From: Microthyrium microscopicum
Taxonomy: Eukaryota; Ascomycota; Dothideomycetes; Microthyriales; Microthyriaceae
Direction: 5' to 3'
DNA: 64,000 bases
Assembly (NCBI GenBank): GCA_010405405.1
Contig: MU004238.1
Location: forward strand, 1,564,374 to 1,628,373
The notes under the pieces were generated by a model, which saw only the letters and a program-made list of their open reading frames with translations, was not told where the DNA came from and made no database searches. This document shows, piece by piece, positions 35,017-47,452 of the stretch (positions within the stretch are counted from its first letter, which is position 1; each line of letters opens with the position of its first letter). Made by a program: the position numbers and the translations under genes.

Positions 35017-35506
35017 TGTTTGTTTTTAGGATTGAGGATGGGGAATGGAGTTCGATCCTTGAAGTGTTGATGGAGAACTAGAGCGGAGATTGATTAGATG
35101 GAGGTTTTTAAGTCCGTGATGGCTGGGAAAAATCATTGATGGTGGGGATGGTGGTTGGCAGGCACGACGGGAAGGCCAAGATGGGCTTTGAGACGGCTTG
35201 ACTTTTCTTGACTTCTTGACTCTTTGGTCTTGACTTTACTTCATTCTTGTCTATATTTGATATCTTCTACTTCTTTGCACATATCTGTTGATTCCTTGTC
35301 ATTGTAACGACTCGCGCGCAAAAGATTTCTAGTCTCTACCAGGAAGCTCGCCAGCCGGATGATTCGGAAGCTCCAAAAGGTCCATTAATCGGAAAGCTTC
35401 GCTAACCGTGACTGAACTACTTGAGTTATTTCTCCCCTCGAATACATCAATTGACAGTTCGCTCGCGTCAGTCTCTGGGCCCTCGAGGCTCCTCGATCAC
35501 AACAGA
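35017..35506. promoter_or_regulatory. Divergent promoter region, SWC6 / seven-span protein
   Basis: 490 bases between start codons. Around 35200-35290 the + strand is TC-rich (repeated CTTGACT words), consistent with a core promoter. A GTG-initiated extension of the right-hand gene (from 35408) is open but unsupported. Confidence 0.4.
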
Positions 35507-37161
35507 ATGGGACTCATCAACGTTCGAGATCTACTCGCCTTCCCAAATGGCGACAACTCCACAGATACCGTCATTCGAGGCGCACATTTCAACTTGACGA
35601 CACTCAAGTTTTTCAACTACACTCTATATTCCAACAATACGCTATCGAATAACTCTAATTGCTGGCTCATCTTGGACAACTATACACCCACTGCCCTCTA
35701 CTCCAATGGCTCCTTCGTCAACGGCACATCATGCTACTCGCCCGTACTCCCTCTCGAGACTCGCGGTCGGCTCGGTGCCATATTCGGGGCCTTGTTCGGC
35801 ATCAGTATAATGTTCACGCTTATAAACTTGAAAATGCATGGGCAACAATTCCTTCGCGAGGATAAGAGGTTCAGATTGGTCGGTCGGAGATGGCAGTGGT
35901 ACTGGATGATCTTTATCGGCGCATGTGGAATGATAAGTTGCATAACTGGCATTGATGTGGATCGAGATTATCTTCAAGATCTTGCTATAATATTGCAGAG
36001 TTTCTTCTACATGTGCATGGGACAATCCGCGGTTGCAGCTGTCTGGGAAGGAGTAAGACATTGGGGCAGTTGGCAGGAACGACAAATCGTGGACCGTGAT
36101 CCTTTTTCATTGCCGCAAGATGATAAGAGAGGTCAAATTGAGTTTTACATGCCTCTGGTGTTTTACTTGTTTGATTTTATGGTAAGTCTCATGACATTGC
36201 TGATAGAATTCTTGCTAACACCCAACAGAGCTTCTTCCTCACAGCTCCACGATCATGGACCAAGATCCCCAAACAAGGCGGCATCCAACAACAAACTACC
36301 GTCGCTGGCGTCGCTGCCACTGACGGCCGCTTCAAAGCCGGCGCCATCTTCCTCGGCCTTGCCTGGCTCGTCATCCTCTATTGTGTCAAGCACAACATTG
36401 CATACTACCGCTTACGCGCCCACCCCTCCCATGCTATGGAAAAACGCATGCTCAACCCATTCACTGTCATCGGTGCCATCCGCTACTTACCACTGCGATT
36501 CATCCTCGCCATTCCTATCATAGCCGTACTCATCGGCTACAACAACGCCATGGCCTGGAACTTCAACATCAGCGTTATGAAGTACAACGTCGCTGTCGAG
36601 TGGCCTTACGCCCTCGGCTATGGGCCACCTCTACTTGTACTATTCATCTTCAATATCTTCGGCTTCCTTGAGAGAAATGAGGACAAACAACTCATGCGGC
36701 AACGGGTAGACCGTGATCGTCGCGCAGATGAGTCATTGGGATATACGAAGAAACCTACCTGGTGGAGCAAGGCGAGAGGCGATCACCATCTAGACGACAT
36801 GTCACGTTTGCAGGATATGGTAGCTGACGAGGGCATCACGAGTACAGGTCCAAAGCGTGGTGGTGGGTATCAGGATGTGGAGCTCAAGGAGATGGGTGGA
36901 CGACCACCGAATCCGCATCGGTCAACGTCCACGGCACGATTGACGGATGATGACGGCTTGCGCACGCGCAGTCCCGCCAGGGGACGGAACACGTCGTCTG
37001 TACGGACGGGCTCGTCTATGCTCTCGCCGGAGGCGGGAAGGCCACCGTGGCAGACTGATAGGTCGAATAGTCCGGGTGGGAACAGTATACTGACGACTGC
37101 GACGGGCACAACGCTGGCGGGTGAGAGGCAGCAGACAGTGAAGAGCATGCTGGATATCTGA
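35507..37161 (+). CDS. Fungal seven-span membrane protein, DUF2434-like
   Basis: Two exons, 35507-36181 and 36229-37161, 535 residues. The first 100 residues carry many N-glycosylation sequons (NST, NLT, NYT, NNT, NNS, NGS, NGT) and should face outside or the lumen. Seven hydrophobic spans follow: GAIFGALFGISIMFTLI, WYWMIFIGACGMISCITGI, LAIILQSFFYMCMGQSAVAA, FYMPLVFYLFDFMSFFL, GAIFLGLAWLVILYCVKH, LRFILAIPIIAVLIGYN, PPLLVLFIFNIFGFLE. The fourth span is created by the splice junction. A polar, Arg/Ser-rich tail of about 160 residues ends the protein. I believe it belongs to the fungal DUF2434 family; function is unknown. Confidence 0.75.
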
Positions 37162-38580
37162 TAGGCGGTCAACTTGTTATGTTGGGCGGGTGCGTTTGGC
37201 ATCACTGTGGAAAATGGAGTTTTATCACGCAGCATATTTAGTCTTTATGATGGACGGTGTGGCACATTCGTTGATACGTTAATGATTTCAATGTTAATAA
37301 TTTATTGATTGCTTTAAGGCGTCAAATCTACATGTCTACACAGTGACTTCACAAAATATCAACCGTTGCATTTTCGGAAATTTGGTCGCTGTCAGCAAAT
37401 ATGACGGAACAATGACGGAGATGACACCAAACTACAGATGATTGTTGTGCTGGCCCAAATCGAACCTCTCGCTGCGAAAATACGGTAGCATGCAATGAAT
37501 AGTTCGACCTGAGTACCGTAGGCAGTCAAAAAGATGCACATTCGCGGTGATCCTGCTTGGGAGCCTTTCACTGCTGATGCATACGGACGAACCAGGTTTT
37601 CTATGGCATTTGCAGACTTTTTTTGGACCTGAGGATCCAGAGCAATGTTTTTAACTGGCGCAAGTTTAACTAGGTCTGAGCATTATTTTGCATCTTCGCG
37701 GCCGCCCAGGTTAGTGAGGGACAGGTTCGTTGGTGATTCAGTGAGCGGGTGGTCGGCTATTTCTGGTTTGGTCCCATACAAAGCAATTTGATATTGATGG
37801 AAGATGCATTTTCTGCAAATCCAACACAATTTACTGTTTTCAAGGATAAATTATAGGTATAGAATGATTGGATTATGCGTGCACAATAATTCTTTTTCGA
37901 AATAGAGTTTTCATTGTAACATAATCGTCCAGTGACTGATTGCTGCAGCTCCATCAAACCCCCCAATTCCGTATCGACGATAGGAGCCATAAGTTTGGTT
38001 GAGCTAAGCCTGTTCCTTGTGCGAGAGAGGAGCCGCTTTGTTGGTACTGTGATACACGCGAGCCCGTCTTTCAGCATGATAACCGGTACACATCTTGAAA
38101 GCCTGAAATCAGTACCAGATTCCAACATCCTGAGCGGCCACACAATGCTGCCATATGTAACAACCATATCCGATGCGCCTCATCCCTCTGTAATGTTTCA
38201 TCATCAAGCAACTTACCTGCTGTATAATAGCAGTTGTTACTCAAGCCATGTTGCCCAGTGAGAGAGAATTATTTGATGAAGGCTGGGTACTGGAAGTTTT
38301 GTGCGGTACGCTATCAATTTTTCTTCGTCTACCTACCATGGATCCCCATCTCGTTCCCTTCGCAGCAAAACTTGGTACTCTCTGATGGATGAGTTTACTG
38401 ATACCTTCTTGAACTGGTTTAGCGCAACTCTCGTCCAATATCTTGACACTGATGGCAGCGTTGGCGACGATACATGCCTTCTTCAAGCAGTTTAGCGCGG
38501 ACTTTTTCTCAACATCAACACCGCAAACTCTGGTACGTGCCGTGCTCGACGATTGCTGATGCGCCGCCCTCTCGTACACA
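37162..38580. other. Gene-poor region before the repeat island
   Basis: Mostly AT-rich to about 37,900. Two minus-strand frames exist (37757-38167, 136 codons; 38241-38579, 112 codons). They contain some protein-like stretches (MAPIVDTELGGLMELQQ; ALNCLKKACIVANAA), but I recognise no domain and found no convincing splice joining them. They could be remnants of a decayed gene or chance. Confidence 0.35.
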
Positions 38581-38835
38581 CCTGTTCAGGCTTAGCGCGA
38601 AAGTTGGCCATCGCATCACTTGTCCCCCCTTCGGGGTACTTAAGGCCTCCTTCTCTCCGTTTCTTCTGTCTTTCTTTCTTTCTTCTCCATCCCTTCGGGG
38701 AAGCACCACTCACCACTATGTCTTCTTGACTCTGACATTTCCTTCTCCTTTGGCTGTCATGCCTTTTGGACTTGTCTTTCTTCTTTCTTTTTTTCTTTTT
38801 TTCCTCTTCAACATTCTTTCAACAACAACCTTCTC
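38581..38835 (+). promoter_or_regulatory. Pyrimidine-rich promoter/leader-like stretch before the repeat array
   Basis: Two short hairpins with a TTCG loop (CCC-TTCG-GGG near 38626-38637 and TCCC-TTCG-GGGA near 38692-38703) flank a CTTTCTTT tract. A second, longer TTTCTTTTTTTC tract follows at about 38780-38810, then CAACATTCTTTCAACAACAACC. CT tracts followed by CAAC-rich leader sequence are typical just before the start of transcription units of highly expressed fungal genes. This suggests + strand transcription into the repeats; it is an inference. Confidence 0.4.
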
Positions 38836-39095
38836 TTGACATGACTGTCGCTCCTTGACATCTCCACTGGTCTTTCACCATCACTGTCGCTCCTCACAAT
38901 CACTGTCGGTCTTCAGCATCACCGTCGCTCCTCACCATCACTGTCAGTTTTGACATCTCCACTGGTCTTTCACCATCACTGTCGCTCCTCACAATCACTG
39001 TCGCTCCTCACCATCACTGTCGGTCTTCATCATCACTGTCGCTCCTCACCATCACTGTCGGTCTTCATCATCACTGTCGCTCTCGACCATCAGCG
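38836..39095 (+). repeat. 19-base tandem repeat
   Basis: About eleven copies of a unit like ATCACTGTCGGTCTTCATC or ATCACTGTCGCTCCTCACM. Copy starts at 38880, 38899, 38918, 39013, 39032, 39051 and 39070 are exactly 19 bases apart; one interruption (TTGACATCTCCACTGGTCTTTC) is itself present twice, near 38857 and 38952. The unit is not a multiple of three, so it is not a protein repeat. Confidence 0.85.
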
Positions 39096-39124
39096 TTCCT
39101 GTTCGCCATGGCATGTCTTCACTC

Positions 39125-40970
39125 TTGCCTGGGCCCTGACCGCACTCGAGGTTGGGGCCATAGGCGCTCTCGGCCCTTCGCTTGGGGTTGGCCAACTTCA
39201 CTACCAACCCCGTGCGCCTTTCACGACACACTCTTGGGGCTGCCTGACGACCAATTTCCAGGTCGGCCCCACACGCCTCCGAGGACACCGTTCGCCTGGG
39301 GTTGGCCAACTTCACTGCCAACCTCGTGCGCTTTCACGACACACTCTTGGGGCTGCCTGATGACCAATTTCCAGGTCGGCCCCACACGCCTCCGAGGATA
39401 CCGTTCGCCTGGGGTTGGCCAACTTCACTGCCAACCTCGTGCGCTTTCACGACACACTCTTGGGGCTGCCTGATGACCAATTTCCAGGTCGGCCCCACAC
39501 GCCTCCGAGGATACCGTTCGCCTGGGGTTGGCCAACTTCACTGCCAACCTCGTGCGCTTTCACGACACACTCTTGGGGCTGCCTGATGACCAATTTCCAG
39601 GTCGGCCCCACACGCTTCCGAGGATACCGTTCGCCTGGGGTTGGCCAACTTCACTGCCAACCTCGTGCGCTTTCACGACACACTCTCGGGGCTGCCTGAT
39701 GACCAATTTCCAGGTCGGCCCCACACGCTTCCGAGGATACCGTCGCCTGGGGATTGGCCCACCTCACTGCCAATCCTCCAAGCTTTTCACGACACAACTT
39801 TCGGGGTTGCTTGATGACCAATTTCCAGGTGGCCCCACACGCTTCCGAGGCTTTCCTTTCGCTTGGGGATTGGCCCACTTCACTACCAATCCCCCAAGCC
39901 TTTCACGACAAACATCACCGGCTTGCGCCACGATCGCACTCGAGATCGTGGCGCCAAGCTATCCAACGACATGCTCACCGGCTTGCGCTTCGATCGCACT
40001 CGAGATCGGAGCGCCAAGCTCTTTCGGCCTTCGTCTGGGGCATCATCATCACCACAAAGATGGTGCCCACAGGCATTCCATCGACAAACATCACTGGCTT
40101 GCGCTTCGATCGCACTCGAGATCGGAGCGCCAGGCTCTTTCGGCCTTCGTCTGGGGCATCATCACCACTACAAAGATGGTGCCTGCAGGCATTCCATCGA
40201 CAAACCTCACCGGCTTGCGCCACGATCGCACTCGAGATCGTGGCGACAGGCCATGCGACGACAAACATCATGAGCCAATCCGATGACCAATATTCGGATT
40301 GGCTCCCACGCTTTTTCGGCCATCGCATTGCAGTCTGGCACCACCAAAAAGCCGGACTGCCATGCTATTCACAGACACCATCAACGCTTGCGCACTGATC
40401 GCACTCGAGCTCGGTGCGCCAAGCTTTCTCGGCCATTCGCTTGGAGAGTGGCATTACCACCAAGCCGCTCTCCCAAGCTTTCATCGACGACAATCGCATC
40501 GGCTTCGACCGCACTCGAGGTTGGAGCCGCATGCGCTCTCGGCCATCCGCTTGGAGAGCGGCATTACCACCAAGCCGCTCTCCCAAGCTTTCATCAACAA
40601 CATTCGCATGGGCTTCGACCGCACTCGAGGTTGGAGCCGCATGCGCTCTCGGCCATCGCCTGGGCTTGATCACCACCACAAAGATTGAGCCCACAGGCGT
40701 CCCAACGACAACCATCACCGGCTTACGCCACGACCGCACTCGAGGTCGTGGCGATAGGCCATCCGAAGACAACCATCACCGGCTTGCGTCACGACCGCAC
40801 TCGAGGTCGTGATGCCAGGCCATCGACGACATCATCAACGCATGGGCTTCAACCGCACTCGAGGTTGGAGCCTACATGCGCTTTCGGCATCAACACCACC
40901 CACCACCACCACCACCAACCAAACAAAGCCAATGCTTGGGCTCTGGTCATACTCCAAGACCGGAGCCACA
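39125..40970 (+). repeat. Array of about 30 short inverted repeats with varying stems
   Basis: Hairpins with 8-12 bp stems and loops of 6-13 bases start at 39132, 39184, 39236, 39297, 39749, 39865, 39925, 39985, 40038, 40101, 40154, 40218, 40272, 40330, 40390, 40443, 40501, 40553, 40611, 40662, 40726, 40786, 40845 and 40939, plus the copies inside the 113-base repeats. Spacing in the diverged part is 51-64 bases except for the last. Main loops are GCACTCGA and ACCACCACAAA (or close variants). Stems differ: CGCCACGATC/GATCGTGGCG (40218), CGCCACGACC/GGTCGTGGCG (40726), GGCTTCAACC/GGTTGGAGCC (40845), GAGCCAATCCGA/TCGGATTGGCTC (40272), GGAGAGCGGC/GCCGCTCTCC (40553). Non-Watson-Crick pairs are G:T on this strand in all cases but one T:C at 40390. 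No protein frame is kept, because unit lengths are not multiples of three. Confidence 0.85.
39184..39860 (+). repeat. 113-base tandem repeat inside the hairpin array
   Basis: Near-identical units begin at about 39188, 39302, 39415, 39528 and 39641, with diverged units at 39753 and 39869. Steps of 113 are exact for three units. Each unit contains two hairpins: TGGGGTTGGC/GCCAACCTCG and a bulged one, GGGGCTGCCTG/CCAGGTCGGCCCC. In the diverged unit at 39749 the stem becomes GGATTGGC/GCCAATCC, changed on both sides. The high identity of the inner units indicates recent amplification of an older two-hairpin unit. Confidence 0.9.
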
Positions 40971-41765
40971 AGCCTCTCAAACAACCGGCGCTTGATGGGA
41001 GCGTGCCATTTATTTTGTCGATTCGTTGTCAGCAGCTTCGATTTCTTCGTCGCAGACAAAACACGGAGTCCAGGGACAGCTCAATCGAGCCTCAAAGTCT
41101 CATGGCCAGCTCCGAGCATCAAGTGTGCAGATACCCAGATACCCCGGTGTCTCACGGAGTCAGTGACTTGTCACTGGCTCCGGGAGGCTCGTGCTCGCCA
41201 GTCTGTCAGCTTTCTGAGACGTCAGTTTGAAAACAGTTGGCGAGAGGATCCCTGCCGTACCAGCCTGTCACCATTTCAGTCTCCAGTGGATACCTCTGAA
41301 GACAGCCGGCGGGAGGCCTCGCAGGCCAACCCCCATTTCTGCCTTTTGTACACAGGTTCGTCCGAGCTTAAGGAGACTTGGGGGCGCTTGCAGCGAGGTT
41401 GGTGGACATTTCAGAGTTCAGACTTTCGTAAGCCTGCCGTTTCTCTGCATTTGGCTGATCACCAAATCAAAGCAGACCGAGGCAGGCTTGATTCTTCTTG
41501 GGCATTTCAGAGCCCCGTTTGCATTAGGTACGTATACGGTCGGTCGGGCATTTCAGAGCCCACTTCGCATACGCATACGCATACGTGGTAAGAATGATGT
41601 GGAAGAAGTCGAGGCGGTCGTGATGGCCCGGTCCACTGGGGCGTGGAGTCGGGTCAAGTCTTTGCGCATTTCGGATTTTTCTGGACTTCTGGTTTCTGGT
41701 TTCTGGTTTCTGGTTTCTGGACTGTAGACTCTCTGAATTGTAGAATGTAGATTCTGGCCTGTAGA
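40971..41765 (+). repeat. Irregular tail of the repeat island with microsatellites
   Basis: GC-rich at first, with one more strong inverted repeat at 41156-41181 (GGAGTCAGTGA/TCACTGGCTCC). A smaller motif with loop ATTTCAGA occurs three times near 41408, 41502 and 41549, flanked by GGAC/GTTC, GGGC/GCCC and GGGC/GCCC, so the four-base arms also covary. A CATACG(CATACG)n run is at about 41567-41587 and a GTTTCTG septamer run at 41690-41725. Long open frames here (for example 40809-41591) read through the repeats and are not credible as genes. Confidence 0.65.
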
Positions 41766-43198
41766 CTCTGGGATCTGGATTGCTCGGAACACAGTTCCTG
41801 ACTTTCAAGCGTCTTGAGCATAAATCATTTTTTTAACAAGGGAATTTTTCCCGCACCTTTATCTTTTACATTGTCTTCTCCACTTGTGGGGATTGCGAGG
41901 TAGATGATCAAGGTTCATGGTGAAGTGAATGGTAAGCAGCGATTCAAAAGCTTGGTCGACTTTCCGCGTCTTGGTTTTCTCTCGCAATCAGGAATGTTGT
42001 CCAGGAATGTGTCGTACTATGTGACGCTGTGGATGTGACGCTTCATCTTGAGTCCTTGACACTGCTTTGCTCCGAGCAAATTGCTCTCGAATAGGTGTAG
42101 AATGCTCTTCTCATCACATCCCGAGACCAGGAAGAATCCTTTCATGAAACGTATGCGGTAAAGTTTGTTGCAACATCATCTCCCCACATAGAAAGCTGAA
42201 AAGGGGTACAGGCAATTGAAGCACAGACATGAAGTTACGATGGAGCATTGCAGGGTTGGCCACTTCAGCAAAACCCCAAATTCCCAAGTCGCTCATCTTT
42301 AAGACGCTTGATTATGCTCCCGTTCGAGGCCTTTTCATATTCTGAAGAAGCCAAACGGTAAATCTGATTTTTCTGGATTTTTGGAAAGTCTCCAAAAATA
42401 ATTTCAAAGCGTGTAAATGTGGTAAATGAGACTCGATTATTCAATATCTTTTGCTTTTTGCTGTTGTGGAGTTGACAAGGAAGCCCCCTAAATTACTGGA
42501 GACTACTCCGTGCCCCTAAGTTAGTCACCCAAGAGCCCCCATAATTTAGCGACTCCAAAATGTCGACAAATAAGTATCTATTAGATTCTAAAGCTCAACG
42601 TCAACAACCACATTTAAGTGTCACTTTATAGCTTCATAATATCAAGCATAGCGCCAATGTCGTTTTATTCATTGAAAAAGTTGGCTCGTTATGGTGTAAT
42701 AAATGCTTTCAAAAAATGTGTTTCTTGCACTTTTTGATTTCGCCTTCAGACTTCAGCCTTGTCGTCAGCCTTGTTGATGGAGAGCAGATAGCTCAGGGTT
42801 TGATGTATGATCCAGCTGCTGTGCTGTGAGCCCAAAATCTAATGGGCACCTTGATCACGTAAGAAATGGTGTTGTTCACTTCCTCGGCATGGTTCAAGCT
42901 CTTTTGTTCGTTAACCGTTCGAAGTGGGTGAGTGAATGCCGTTGTGTAATATGAAAGTATATCCCCACTCCCCATTCCAAGAAGAGCCATAACCTTGCAC
43001 ATATCCACATTCAACATGACAATTTCGAGAACAACGAATGCAAGACATAAAAGTAAGAATCGTATTCGCTGTCAGCTAACCCGATCATATCATCATAGCC
43101 TCGCGGCTCATGTATCTAAGAAGGTATATAGAACTATATCAGCAAAAGCATATAAACCCATAAATCAAAGCCCAGGTCTAAAACTCCATATCCCATCA
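41766..43198. other. Intergenic region after the repeat island
   Basis: AT-rich, no frame above about 75 codons and no domain seen. Near 42482-42555 there is a repetitive stretch with several GCCCC(C/T)(A/T)A words. Otherwise I see nothing. Confidence 0.5.
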
Positions 43199-45454: not shown

Positions 45455-47452
45455 TCAAACAACATCGACAACTCTCACCGCTCTATCTAGCCCTTCCTCT
45501 GACTCTTCTTTAGACACAAGTCCTGTCCACATCTTCGGTAGTACAGGCTGCGGCGCCTGCGATACTTTCGGGGTAGGCGCACCGTCATCCGAGGACAGGC
45601 TGTCTGAATTGTCGCTATCATCCGGCAGCGAGATATTGATGGCTTCGTTGAGGACGTGGCCTTGTTCAAAGTTCAATGTGGGCTCGCCAGGCGCCACTTG
45701 CTGATCTTCTTCGGCATCAGCAAAGATGTCATCGTCATCGGCTGGTAATGGGGTGCGACAGGCAATGTTGAGATCCGCTAGGTCCTTGCCGCTACTCTCT
45801 GTGATGAGCTCGTAGAAGAGCATGAACACTTGTCCTTGATGAAAGACGGTTCGGTCTGACACACGGTCCACATCGTCGTCACTTAACTCCCACCAACCGG
45901 GAAAACTTGGTTTGGACTGGGGCTCGGAAGGCTTTGTTGGGTTATGTGTGGGTGGATATTTTCGGTAGCAGATGTAGTGTCCATTTTCATGTCTTCCGTG
46001 GTGTATCACAGCCGCGCGTAGCTCGTATTGCCAATCGGAAGGTTTTGGATACACATAGGATGAGGTAGGTTGTGGAGGAAGCATCGAGCTGCGAGGATCC
46101 GCTATTGAATCTGGTACGGGAATTTCTTTTGCTTCTCCTTCCTGTTTTGATTCCAAATTTTCTGATGCCAGTTCATTGACACACCAAGGTCCTAGATCCA
46201 ACCCAACAGGAAATCGAACTTGTGCTGTATTCTTGTACATTGCTCCAGAGTACTCATCAAACACGCTTCGATTCACGTGTATAGCGAAAGCCTTTGGCGG
46301 CCGGGCAATTGCAGTTTGTTTTGACTTTGTCGTAGACTCCCACAAATTCTTCGATAAAGAGCACTTTTTTATGAGTGTCTCGTCCGCAAAATCATCGTTA
46401 GCTAGCGCTTCCTCAACTGCTGCCAGACGGCTTGTAAGAACAGGGACGAGCGGAGAGGCCTCGTTCTGAGAAAGCATTCTCTTGAGATTGGCTTGTGCCC
46501 GTAGAAGAGTACATTTTGGACATTGGACGCCTTCGATAAACTCCAACTTCGAGTATTCGTCCAGAAGTTCTGAAATGTGATAGGTGTTATATCGACCGAG
46601 TGGCAAGGTAAGGTTATTGAAGGGAATGAGTGATATGCCATCCGAGTGGCCGCACTGTAGACATCCAACGCGCTGAGCAATGAGTCCTTCGAGTGGATTT
46701 TGTAGCTTGTTATCTGCTGCGGCTTTAGTGTCGGGTGTTTCTACCAGGTCAGACACGTCAAGCAAACCACTGAGGCCGTTAGACTTGGAAGCCAGGTTTC
46801 TTCTGTTGATGGCCTCCTTGTCAATCTGGTCCAAGATCTTGGAGTAGTATTCCTGCGCATCCTGTTGTTCTATGCTGCTCATTGATTTCAGAGCGCATGG
46901 CAGCCACATCATTCGCGAATTCTGAGGCGTATTTAGGAGGTACATGGTCTCTGTGAGTACAGTAGACGTGGCTGTGCCATTAGTTCCATCCTCGATGATC
47001 TGATCCAAAAACTTTGGGAACGAGACGAGTGAGGACAGTCCTTGAACAACGCTGTTCTGATAGCACGAGAAGTCGACATTTCCCAATCCCAAAGGCTTTG
47101 ACTGGATCATTCGCTGTGCAAACGCAGGCAGTCCAGTCCGCGCAATGATGCGCCCTGCGGCAGAGCCGGGGGTCTTTCCACCAGAATGTATGAGAGCTGT
47201 TGGTCTGATAAGTCCGGTAGAAAATCGGTATGCCATGTCCTTCAGCCCCAGCAACACCCGCTTCACGAAGAATAATATTCTGTAATGCGCTGTGCCGCCA
47301 GTAACGTGATAGGCACTGGCAAGAGCTATCAGAGCAGGGAGGATGAGTTTGGCATCGATCCAAGTTTCCAAGGCGGGCTTTCGTAGTTGTTGAGTGCCCT
47401 GAAAGGATGAGAACGAGGGTTTTGAGGCTGCCCAAGCAGTGTCGACATTCAT
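45455..47452 (-). CDS. UBP1: Ubiquitin-specific protease, membrane-anchored Ubp1 type
   Basis: Single exon, 665 residues. An N-terminal hydrophobic segment (AKLILPALIALASAYHV, about residues 34-50) and a second weaker one (YRILFFVKRVLLGL) suggest membrane anchoring, as in yeast Ubp1 and animal USP30. The Cys box is LGLGNVDFSCYQNSVVQGL with the nucleophile at residue 130. A zinc-binding pair of CxxC motifs is seen (CLQCGH and CPKCTL). The His box is HHGRHENGHYICYRK, and the third residue lies in WWELSDDDVDRV. The C-terminus is acidic. The Cys box departs from the usual GLxNxGNTCYxNS: residues before the Cys are DFS rather than GNT, so the asparagine that normally shapes the oxyanion hole is not obvious. 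Confidence 0.88.
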   Translation of the reverse strand: MNVDTAWAASKPSFSSFQGTQQLRKPALETWIDAKLILPALIALASAYHVTGGTAHYRILFFVKRVLLGLKDMAYRFSTGLIRPTALIHSGGKTPGSAAGRIIARTGLPAFAQRMIQSKPLGLGNVDFSCYQNSVVQGLSSLVSFPKFLDQIIEDGTNGTATSTVLTETMYLLNTPQNSRMMWLPCALKSMSSIEQQDAQEYYSKILDQIDKEAINRRNLASKSNGLSGLLDVSDLVETPDTKAAADNKLQNPLEGLIAQRVGCLQCGHSDGISLIPFNNLTLPLGRYNTYHISELLDEYSKLEFIEGVQCPKCTLLRAQANLKRMLSQNEASPLVPVLTSRLAAVEEALANDDFADETLIKKCSLSKNLWESTTKSKQTAIARPPKAFAIHVNRSVFDEYSGAMYKNTAQVRFPVGLDLGPWCVNELASENLESKQEGEAKEIPVPDSIADPRSSMLPPQPTSSYVYPKPSDWQYELRAAVIHHGRHENGHYICYRKYPPTHNPTKPSEPQSKPSFPGWWELSDDDVDRVSDRTVFHQGQVFMLFYELITESSGKDLADLNIACRTPLPADDDDIFADAEEDQQVAPGEPTLNFEQGHVLNEAINISLPDDSDNSDSLSSDDGAPTPKVSQAPQPVLPKMWTGLVSKEESEEGLDRAVRVVDVV

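Follow-up and report, generated by a model that had tools for sequence, protein, structure and literature searches.

A tandem array of 32 hairpins with covarying stems and conserved loops in the nuclear genome of Microthyrium microscopicum

Organization of the locus

The stretch of DNA analysed here (64,000 nucleotides, hereafter the window) contains a tandem array of 32 hairpins on the + strand, recognised by local folding at 39126-40973. Its flanking genes include a DUF2434 gene at 35408-37161 and, on the other side, one for a ubiquitin protease at 45455-47452. The window is fungal nuclear DNA, as had been supposed from the letters alone, given that its SKI3-like protein is 100% identical over 98% to a Microthyrium microscopicum protein (2.18 Mb contig). 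A pyrimidine tract upstream of the array, followed by CAACA, is a probable transcription start zone, and we take it to resemble fungal Pol II core promoters. It is followed by a leader of 19-base repeats that appears unstructured, since the fold z of 38840-39125 is +1.18 on the + strand. The TGTCG of this leader could pair with the spacer CGACA, a five-base match easily due to chance. Just 3′ of the array lies a fragment of an SBDS-domain gene whose exons, with borders placed from GT-AG ends, are joined without an intron. A possible 3′ extension comprises one hairpin and three ATTTCAGA loops on 4-bp stems (41404-41419, 41500-41515 and 41546-41561); the region 40974-41700 has a fold z of -3.3 on the + strand and -4.0 on the - strand, thus showing no strand preference. 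The features are as follows, hairpins without a bracketed source coming from local folding.

38750-38840, +, pyrimidine tract, then CAACA; probable transcription start zone (sequence)
38875-39092, +, leader of 19-base repeats, TCACCATCACTGTCGCTCC, unstructured (sequence, fold z)
39126-39166, +, hairpin 1, loop GCACTCGA (local folding, covariance model)
39179-39216, +, hairpin 2, loop CCAACTTCACTA
39235-39271, +, hairpin 3, loop containing CGACCAATTT
39293-39330, +, hairpin 4, loop CAACTTCACT
39348-39384, +, hairpin 5, loop containing TGACCAATTT
39406-39443, +, hairpin 6, loop CAACTTCACT
39461-39497, +, hairpin 7, loop containing TGACCAATTT
39519-39556, +, hairpin 8, loop CAACTTCACT
39574-39610, +, hairpin 9, loop containing TGACCAATTT
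39632-39669, +, hairpin 10, loop CAACTTCACT
39687-39723, +, hairpin 11, loop containing TGACCAATTT
39745-39783, +, hairpin 12, loop CCACCTCACT
39802-39837, +, hairpin 13, loop containing TGACCAATTT, several G.U pairs in stem
39861-39899, +, hairpin 14, loop CCCACTTCACTA
39920-39960, +, hairpin 15, loop GCACTCGA (family alignment, covariance model)
39980-40020, +, hairpin 16, loop GCACTCGA (family alignment, covariance model)
40033-40074, +, hairpin 17, loop ATCACCACAAA (local folding, ACCAC-family alignment)
40096-40136, +, hairpin 18, loop GCACTCGA (family alignment, covariance model)
40149-40190, +, hairpin 19, loop ACCACTACAAA (local folding, ACCAC-family alignment)
40212-40252, +, hairpin 20, loop GCACTCGA (family alignment, covariance model)
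40272-40305, +, hairpin 21, loop TGACCAATAT, 12 perfect pairs
40325-40365, +, hairpin 22, loop ACCACCAAAAA (local folding, ACCAC-family alignment)
40386-40424, +, hairpin 23, loop GCACTCGA, stem with one U.C mismatch (family alignment, covariance model)
40439-40478, +, hairpin 24, loop ATTACCACCAA (local folding, ACCAC-family alignment)
40495-40535, +, hairpin 25, loop GCACTCGA (family alignment, covariance model)
40549-40588, +, hairpin 26, loop ATTACCACCAA (local folding, ACCAC-family alignment)
40605-40645, +, hairpin 27, loop GCACTCGA (family alignment, covariance model)
40657-40699, +, hairpin 28, loop ACCACCACAAA (local folding, ACCAC-family alignment)
40720-40760, +, hairpin 29, loop GCACTCGA (family alignment, covariance model)
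40781-40821, +, hairpin 30, loop GCACTCGA (family alignment, covariance model)
40839-40880, +, hairpin 31, loop GCACTCGA, 2-base bulge (family alignment, covariance model)
40881-40933, +, A/C-rich long linker, (ACC)n (sequence, folding)
40934-40973, +, hairpin 32, loop ATACTCCAA (29.5 bits to the GCACTCGA model)
41024-41102, +, SBDS-domain gene fragment, exons joined without intron (sequence matches)
41155-41561, +, possible 3′ extension, with a hairpin at 41155-41182 followed by three ATTTCAGA loops

The sequence-only reading had described about 30 hairpins, 51-64 bases apart, with stems of 8-12 bp and two loop families, and the array proved real and stronger than that. All four stems quoted as examples were located in it, and 30 of the 31 start intervals fall at 52-63 bases, the exception being the final interval of 95. 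The stems, however, are mostly 11-16 bp long when wobble pairs and the portion beneath the usual bulge are counted, and the loops fall into more than two families: 11 hairpins have GCACTCGA, seven a CAACTTCACT-like loop, five TGACCAATTT and one CGACCAATTT, six have an ACCAC-type loop, and two are singletons (TGACCAATAT at 40272 and ATACTCCAA at 40934). Many hairpins share an arrangement of about 10 bp over a 3′ bulge of one base, with 4-6 bp beneath it; the geometry is not uniform, because in the six T/CGACCAATTT hairpins the bulge is placed elsewhere or absent. Alternation of the spacer classes holds for 26 of the 30 pairs of neighbours.

The loops stay fixed while the spacers differ by 34-59% between units, and units with the GCACTCGA loop differ by 21-32% in their stems; the invariance of the loop among these units is partly true by definition, given that the family was collected via its loop. 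Together with its closing pair this loop is present 11 times in the array, where variants of it with one or two changes are absent. G makes up 11.6% of the unpaired bases as against 36.6% of the paired ones.

Folding, covariation and strand preference

At a fixed score the array contains 12 Watson-Crick stems, compared with a mean of 0.5 and a maximum of 3 in 60 dinucleotide shuffles, so that in the control set beforehand as a refuting test the stems far exceed those of composition-matched sequence; 31 other stretches of the window gave a mean of 0.39 and a maximum of 2 at the same score. When wobble was allowed, stems of at least 10 pairs numbered 24 on the + strand and six on the - strand, as against a mean of 0.74 (maximum 2) in 31 chunks of the window and of 0.79 (maximum 5) in 43 chunks, non-randomly chosen and some of them overlapping, from 33 other loci of the genome. 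Stems restricted to Watson-Crick pairs were nine on each strand (control maximum 4). The fold z was -18.8 on the + strand and -6.9 on the - strand for the 3′ half of the array, -8.0 and -3.6 for the 5′ half, and between -0.3 and +0.7 for two flanking controls.

Because the unit has been copied many times, this one genome provides its own covariation test, all covariation being among paralogous units that copying makes non-independent. The 11 hairpins of the GCACTCGA family are 98.9% paired, with both sides changed in nine of 16 pairs, as against only 28-39% paired in slid registers, and the ACCAC family (seven rows, with hairpin 32) is 98.6% paired, with both sides changed in nine of 10 pairs. 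The 20 distinct arm pairs are 98.5% paired, whereas swapped arms gave a mean of 57.5% and a maximum of 76.5% in 5000 trials. We then used a home-made, phylogeny-aware test with a tree-based null on 26 of the 32 hairpins (20 distinct, all paralogous units), leaving aside the six T/CGACCAATTT hairpins because their bulge sits elsewhere. Five of 190 column pairs were significant and all five lie in the stem, which indicates covariation beyond the copying of units, the second point set beforehand as a refuting test. With the 11 GCACTCGA hairpins alone, where power is low, one of 780 pairs passed E<0.05 and the next was a non-stem neighbour (E 0.058). Not all measures of covariation exceeded their shuffles: the observed number of further pair types was matched by 33 of 500 shuffles in the GCACTCGA family and by 177 of 500 in the ACCAC family.

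The pairs that are not Watson-Crick also point to one strand. Across the 32 hairpins we counted 37 G.U against two A.C pairs and 15 other mismatches, under a wobble-neutral scheme that mostly misses hairpin 13; among 27 distinct hairpins the figures were 29 and two, and in the GCACTCGA and ACCAC families wobble occurs at 10 of 26 pair positions and A.C at none. The covariance model scores 55-67 bits on the + strand, for its own training units, and at most 25.7 on the - strand. The claim that structure is under selection is thus supported by covariation, by the G.U excess over A.C, by the + strand preference and by fixed loops on varying stems and spacers; that selection acts on the structure of a + strand RNA is well supported, because of the G.U to A.C ratio and the strand difference in stems of at least 10 pairs.

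Database and genome searches

None of the 4227 families of Rfam 15 reaches its gathering cut-off, and at loose E-values nothing credible appeared, the best weak match (E 0.23) lying on the opposite strand; a tRNA scan found none. DNA searches gave no further copies of the array in its own genome, pointing to a single locus. With up to three mismatches, the GACA spacer has five of its 15 genome matches in the array (reversed control 8) and all 10 outside it carry three mismatches; with up to two, the CGGCC spacer has two of nine in the array, all nine with two mismatches. The seven CGGCC matches outside, against two for the reversed control, are a small excess.

Several candidate relatives were examined and set aside. 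Loop-pair patterns occur in viral contigs as 2 and 8 stretches (8 loci in total), in which the hairpin model finds nothing convincing, and in the 10 loci examined, of 56 places with the GCACTCGA loop sequence in the own genome, its matches were likewise unconvincing, the best score overall, viral loci included, being 15.1 bits. No paralogous array lies behind the matches of the 3′ region on C7 and C11, and the hairpin model gives no match there; what they share with the window is a gene fragment in spliced form together with a stretch of 30 bases. At L044 there is one 18-base repeat in two copies.

Alternative explanations

MicroRNA clusters are laid out as hairpins in tandem, and the genome holds five Piwi-domain matches over the cut-off (two adjacent, two with internal stops) as well as, at two loci, paired RNase III domains suggestive of Dicer. 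A small-RNA precursor, whose hairpins Dicer would cut and whose arms or loops would be loaded on Argonaute, is nevertheless unlikely. The usual Dicer product has 20-23 nt, whereas the longest stems reach about 16 bp with a bulge, too short for a 20-23 bp duplex; the fixed part here is the loops, not the arms as in miRNA genes; and a search of the genome turned up no further DNA resembling the array, though targets of about 20 bases would escape such a search.

It is also conceivable, if decidedly unlikely, that the array is a functionless tandem repeat that began as a palindrome and whose arms are kept matched, within each hairpin, by gene conversion or template switching. Homogenisation does occur in tandem arrays, and here the 113-base units in the 5′ half are 94% matched; some unit pairs differ by paired changes without single ones. 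Arm correction should however yield Watson-Crick arms and be neutral as to strand, in disagreement with the G.U excess and with the 24 to six stems, and it leaves unexplained a loop without near-variants and the G-poor linkers.

A guide or antisense RNA, with the fixed loops base-pairing to some target RNA, we consider improbable. The uniformity of the GCACTCGA loop would suit such a role, and the self-complementary UCGA that it contains makes loop-loop contacts possible; but the loop is not enriched elsewhere, 45 of its 56 genome matches lying outside the array as against 48 for the reversed pattern. Palindromic sites for binding or recombination at the DNA level would account for the perfect palindromes in the array, such as CGCCACGATC/GATCGTGGCG, and for the equality of Watson-Crick stems on the two strands, which must hold in any case; we know of no DNA-level explanation for the G.U/A.C asymmetry together with a wobble-dependent strand preference, and this reading is very improbable. 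Finally, a coding repeat is hardly credible, as the sequence-only reading had also concluded: there are open frames, the longest of 252-260 aa, that overlap it, but the three loop sequences checked occur in all three frames, 24 of the 31 spacings do not divide evenly by 3, none of nine ORFs scanned has a Pfam match and a search for relatives with the 252-aa ORF, the one so searched, gave none at E ≤ 1.

A candidate multivalent RNA

We regard it as moderately probable that the locus specifies a non-coding RNA built by tandem amplification of a two-hairpin module, and that this RNA binds proteins multivalently, as their scaffold or sponge. The + strand would be transcribed into one long non-coding RNA, and its module, two hairpins with two A/C-rich linkers, would have been duplicated many times, the copies diverging while pairing was retained and the loops were held fixed. 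Each hairpin would display its loop, perhaps together with the bulge, as a putative binding site, and the alternation of two spacer classes and of several loop families could allow many copies to be bound. The partners would be one, probably two, RNA-binding proteins, present in many copies per RNA, and the RNA would either scaffold these proteins or titrate them like a sponge. Fixed loops on variable stems resemble protein docking hairpins, as a comparison with what is described of roX suggests (PMC4719309).

A more specific version, which we put forward tentatively and with more doubt than confidence, is that of an architectural RNA, in which some sixteen two-hairpin modules would alternately hold two RNA-binding proteins and, with RNA-RNA contacts through UCGA, nucleate a ribonucleoprotein body. 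The array offers well-defined loops and stems that could serve as bait, and it is a case for asking how a multivalent RNA grows via tandem duplication under structural selection.

Comparison with known systems

Clear covariation is rare among long non-coding RNAs, and to our knowledge few RNAs of this sort have been described from fungi. The array joins covariation beyond phylogeny (by our home-made test on paralogous units) with an absence of coding potential, as a structured non-coding RNA gene does. NORAD, the Xist A-repeat and hsr-omega are repeat-built animal RNAs that gather many protein copies, with repeats unlike the array in sequence and structure. Seventeen covariation-supported families of conserved structural RNAs have been described in fungi, comprising H/ACA snoRNAs, four intergenic RNAs averaging 92-144 nt and mRNA-linked structures, and the array, as a candidate RNA, likewise has structure supported by covariation; neither 'tandem' nor 'repeat' appears in that paper (PMC8216456). 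Hairpin-like structures are enriched in Candida lncRNAs, the available part of whose description contains no tandem array with conserved loops (PMC10926079). No fungal hairpin array was among the literature matches listed, in a search with most subscription journals and all bioRxiv preprints outside its scope, and as far as we found no fungal counterpart of a many-armed docking platform has been described.

In working style the array seems nearest to roX and CsrB, an analogy and not a demonstrated membership of either. The Drosophila roX1 and roX2 are long non-coding RNAs with a short motif repeated within stem-loops, more stem-loops giving better rescue, and in layout alone the array likewise repeats a short motif in stem-loops (PMC4719309). 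It differs in its 32 hairpins, two mostly alternating slots and several loop families, with homology not shown. The roXbox, in sequence and in its position in the stem-loop, is unlike the fungal loops.

In the bacterial CsrB/RsmZ RNAs, a single molecule carries an array of stem-loops whose loops repeat a motif. RNAs of this type sequester CsrA/RsmE (PMC4005645). The likeness lies, at the sequence level, in many stem-loops with a conserved loop motif, presumably in one RNA; the array is far longer and eukaryotic, its loops as folded have no GGA, and it matches no Rfam family at the gathering score. CsrA itself is a protein family of bacteria. Were the architectural reading true, we would know of no earlier case of a CsrB-like RNA layout in a eukaryotic microbe. 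The REP and mitochondrial double-hairpin elements named at the outset as nearest analogues are poor ones, because these short palindromic hairpins are dispersed whereas the array is, by DNA searches, one tandem nuclear locus; tandem stem-loop scaffold RNAs are nearer to it.

Setting and anatomy of the array

The window (C9:1564374-1628373, in a genome of 36.9 Mb and 20 contigs) comes from Microthyrium microscopicum, placed in Microthyriales, Dothideomycetes. The product of 10719-14948 matches 'putative antiviral protein [Microthyrium microscopicum]' with 100% identity over 98%, and its relatives carry the name superkiller protein 3. The array lies in a gap of ~6 kb between the end of a DUF2434 gene near 37161 and an opposite-strand ORF from 43199 (+ coordinates). 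The sequence-only reading had placed about 30 hairpins at 39125-40970, and local folding counts 32 of them between 39126 and 40973.

Features of the array and its leader
38875-39092, upstream of the array: unstructured leader with 19-base repeats
Loop GCACTCGA: 11 hairpins
Loop CAACTTCACT-like: 7 hairpins
Loop TGACCAATTT: 5 hairpins
Loop CGACCAATTT: 1 hairpin
Loop TGACCAATAT: 1 hairpin, at 40272
ACCAC-type loop: 6 hairpins
Loop ATACTCCAA: 1 hairpin, at 40934

In the alignment of the 11 GCACTCGA hairpins a 3′ bulge of one base (two in a single copy) separates 10 upper pairs, with a mismatch in one hairpin, from 5-6 lower ones, among which one hairpin has a C.C. The ACCAC family follows a similar plan, a 1x1 mismatch often replaces the bulge in the CAACTTCACT family, and five of the six hairpins with loop TGACCAATTT or CGACCAATTT have the bulge 4 bp from the loop, the sixth having none. 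Seventeen of the 31 spacers are of the GACA kind (GACA itself in 16, a merely similar sequence in one) and the other 14 carry CGGC or CCGAGG, with GACA present too in one of them. In 26 of 30 cases a spacer is followed by one of the other class, so the repeating module is mostly a pair of hairpins with a pair of spacers. The leader repeats contain eight of the ten TGTCG copies present in 38501-41900, and the reverse complement CGACA is carried by array spacers; from these sequences, long-range pairing is possible.

Excess of stems over chance

With Watson-Crick pairs only, the array has 12 strong stems. The shuffled-control comparison proposed in the sequence-only reading upholds the excess, 60 dinucleotide shuffles giving a mean of 0.5 and a maximum of 3, and 31 other stretches of the window a mean of 0.39 and a maximum of 2. 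Once wobble is allowed, the + strand of the array has 24 stems with 10 or more pairs and the - strand has 6, against a mean of 0.74 (maximum 2) in 31 window chunks and of 0.79 (maximum 5) elsewhere in the genome, the latter from 43 chunks of 33 non-random, partly overlapping loci fetched for other reasons. Folding z-scores (base-pair span at most 60, 60 shuffles each) were -8.0 (+) and -3.6 (-) for the 5′ half and -18.8 (+) and -6.9 (-) for the 3′ half, compared to +1.2 (+) and -0.2 (-) for the leader and -0.3 to +0.7 for two flanking controls.

Covariation of stems and constancy of loops

The array combines hairpin structure, covariation between its units and fixed loops. The covarying stems that had been noticed by eye are confirmed in the GCACTCGA family, where 98.9% of cells are paired (n=175; 28-39% in slid registers), both sides have changed in 9 of 16 pairs, and none of 500 shuffles reached the covariation score; 33 of the 500 attained the count of further pair types. 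With hairpin 32 added, the ACCAC family (7 sequences) has 98.6% of its cells paired (n=70) and changes on both sides in 9 of 10 pairs; here 177 of 500 shuffles reach the same number of further pair types. Across 20 distinct arm pairs (26 hairpins) pairing is 98.5%, compared to a mean of 57.5% and a maximum of 76.5% in 5000 arm swaps, and for the 8 distinct GCACTCGA arm pairs one swap in 5000 reached the observed pairing.

Because the units are related by duplication, we also used a home-made, R-scape-like test (G-test with background correction) in which null alignments were made by moving substitutions along a tree. Among the 11 GCACTCGA units, one of 780 column pairs had E<0.05, a stem pair, and the next best (E 0.058) was a non-stem neighbour; limited to the 16 stated pairs, three fell below 0.05. 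For the 20 distinct upper stems (26 hairpins), 5 of 190 pairs had E<0.05, each of them a stem pair. The tree was derived from the short stems under test, and such a test on paralogous units does not replace orthologs. The arm swaps and this 20-stem test cover the hairpins other than the six with loop TGACCAATTT or CGACCAATTT.

The loops behave differently from the stems. In the GCACTCGA family 8 of 8 loop columns are invariant versus 13 of 58 elsewhere, partly by definition since the loop was the criterion for assembling the family. A less circular count takes the loop together with its closing pair, of which the array has 11 copies and no variant with one or two changes, while the stem parts of these units show 0.21-0.32 differences per site and the spacers 0.34-0.59, according to the alignment used. 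The loop is therefore likely the contact surface and the stem its holder, as judged from sequence conservation.

The selected strand

When G.U and A.C were scored as equal mismatches, the 32 hairpins had 400 Watson-Crick pairs, 37 G.U, 2 A.C and 15 other mismatches, a folding that misses most of the G.U-rich stem of hairpin 13; in 27 distinct hairpins the ratio was 29 G.U to 2 A.C. Nominal P values from these totals overstate, since wobbles are inherited in common between units; by pair position over the GCACTCGA and ACCAC families, wobble occurs at 10 of 26 and A.C at none (two-sided sign test ~0.002, by hand). In two CAACTTCACT-like hairpins the loop is closed by C.A. We know of nothing in duplex DNA for which such an asymmetry would matter, and it thus points to RNA of the + strand, on which selection acts. 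A covariance model scores 55-67 bits on the + strand, on its own 11 training units, and at most 25.7 bits on the - strand. Unpaired bases are rich in C and A with 11.6% G, and paired bases have 36.6% G, as would be expected of linkers that should stay unpaired.

Copies and neighbouring sequences

A search of the genome with the 1846-base array returned only the array itself, although diverged arrays could escape a sequence search, and the leader occurs once. Of 56 genomic sites with the GCACTCGA loop and its closing pair, 11 fall within the array; the other 45 compare with 48 for the reversed control.

Close to the 3′ end of the array, 41024-41102 matches across two exons of an SBDS_N-domain gene on contig C7 (stretch L044, 4876-5028), joined without their intron and with an additional base where they meet; we take the gene to be RTC3-like, and its exon borders were drawn from GT-AG ends without annotation. 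By its sequence, this fragment looks like a piece of reverse-transcribed mRNA (captured cDNA). It is adjoined by 40991-41020, 30 bases identical to a site of intergenic look on contig C11 (stretch L045, 4898-4927); a search with the upstream flank (37200-38599) found nothing of this kind. More hairpins, without strand preference, extend to ~41561, and 41404-41561 contains three ATTTCAGA loops on 4-bp stems (GGAC/GTTC once, GGGC/GCCC twice) that may make up another family of small hairpins. Farther downstream are six tandem copies of TTTCTGG (41678-41720) and a dispersed repeat (42339-42556) with one ~213-base copy at 70% and two 64-base copies at 80-81%, the copies being on contigs C1 and C2.

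Possible function and comparison with known systems

A small-RNA role is possible, since the genome has Argonaute-like and Dicer-like genes, but the shortness of the stems and the constancy of the loops make it less likely.

Small-RNA pathway candidates in the genome
C9:1448821, C5:1865317, C5:139825-140807, C7:2031228: Argonaute-like matches (stops inside the C7 match and one on C5)
C6:2323401, C3:437493: paired RNase III domains, two loci

The array gives no sign of coding, in agreement with the first reading: 24 of the 31 spacings do not divide by three, the loops occur in every frame (three loop sequences tested), none of the nine ORFs scanned had a Pfam match, and a 252-aa ORF had no relative at E up to 1 among 5.8 billion proteins, a set that includes proteins of M. 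microscopicum.

The array would be transcribed as one RNA whose hairpin loops may be bound by proteins, conceivably two partners in alternation along it, and which could act as a scaffold or sponge. A literature search of open-licence papers had no fungal hairpin array among the matches listed. The words hairpin and stem-loop do not occur in the passages covered of a fungal lncRNA review from 2025 (PMC12566771), and nothing like the array appears in those of PMC8216456 (17 fungal structural RNAs) and PMC10926079 (Candida RNA structures). The nearest likenesses are in layout and do not imply membership: the account of roX RNAs describes a short motif on repeated stem-loops, more stem-loops giving more rescue (PMC4719309), and that of the Csr/Rsm small RNAs describes sequestration of CsrA/RsmE (PMC4005645), and the array RNA would resemble both in its arrangement.
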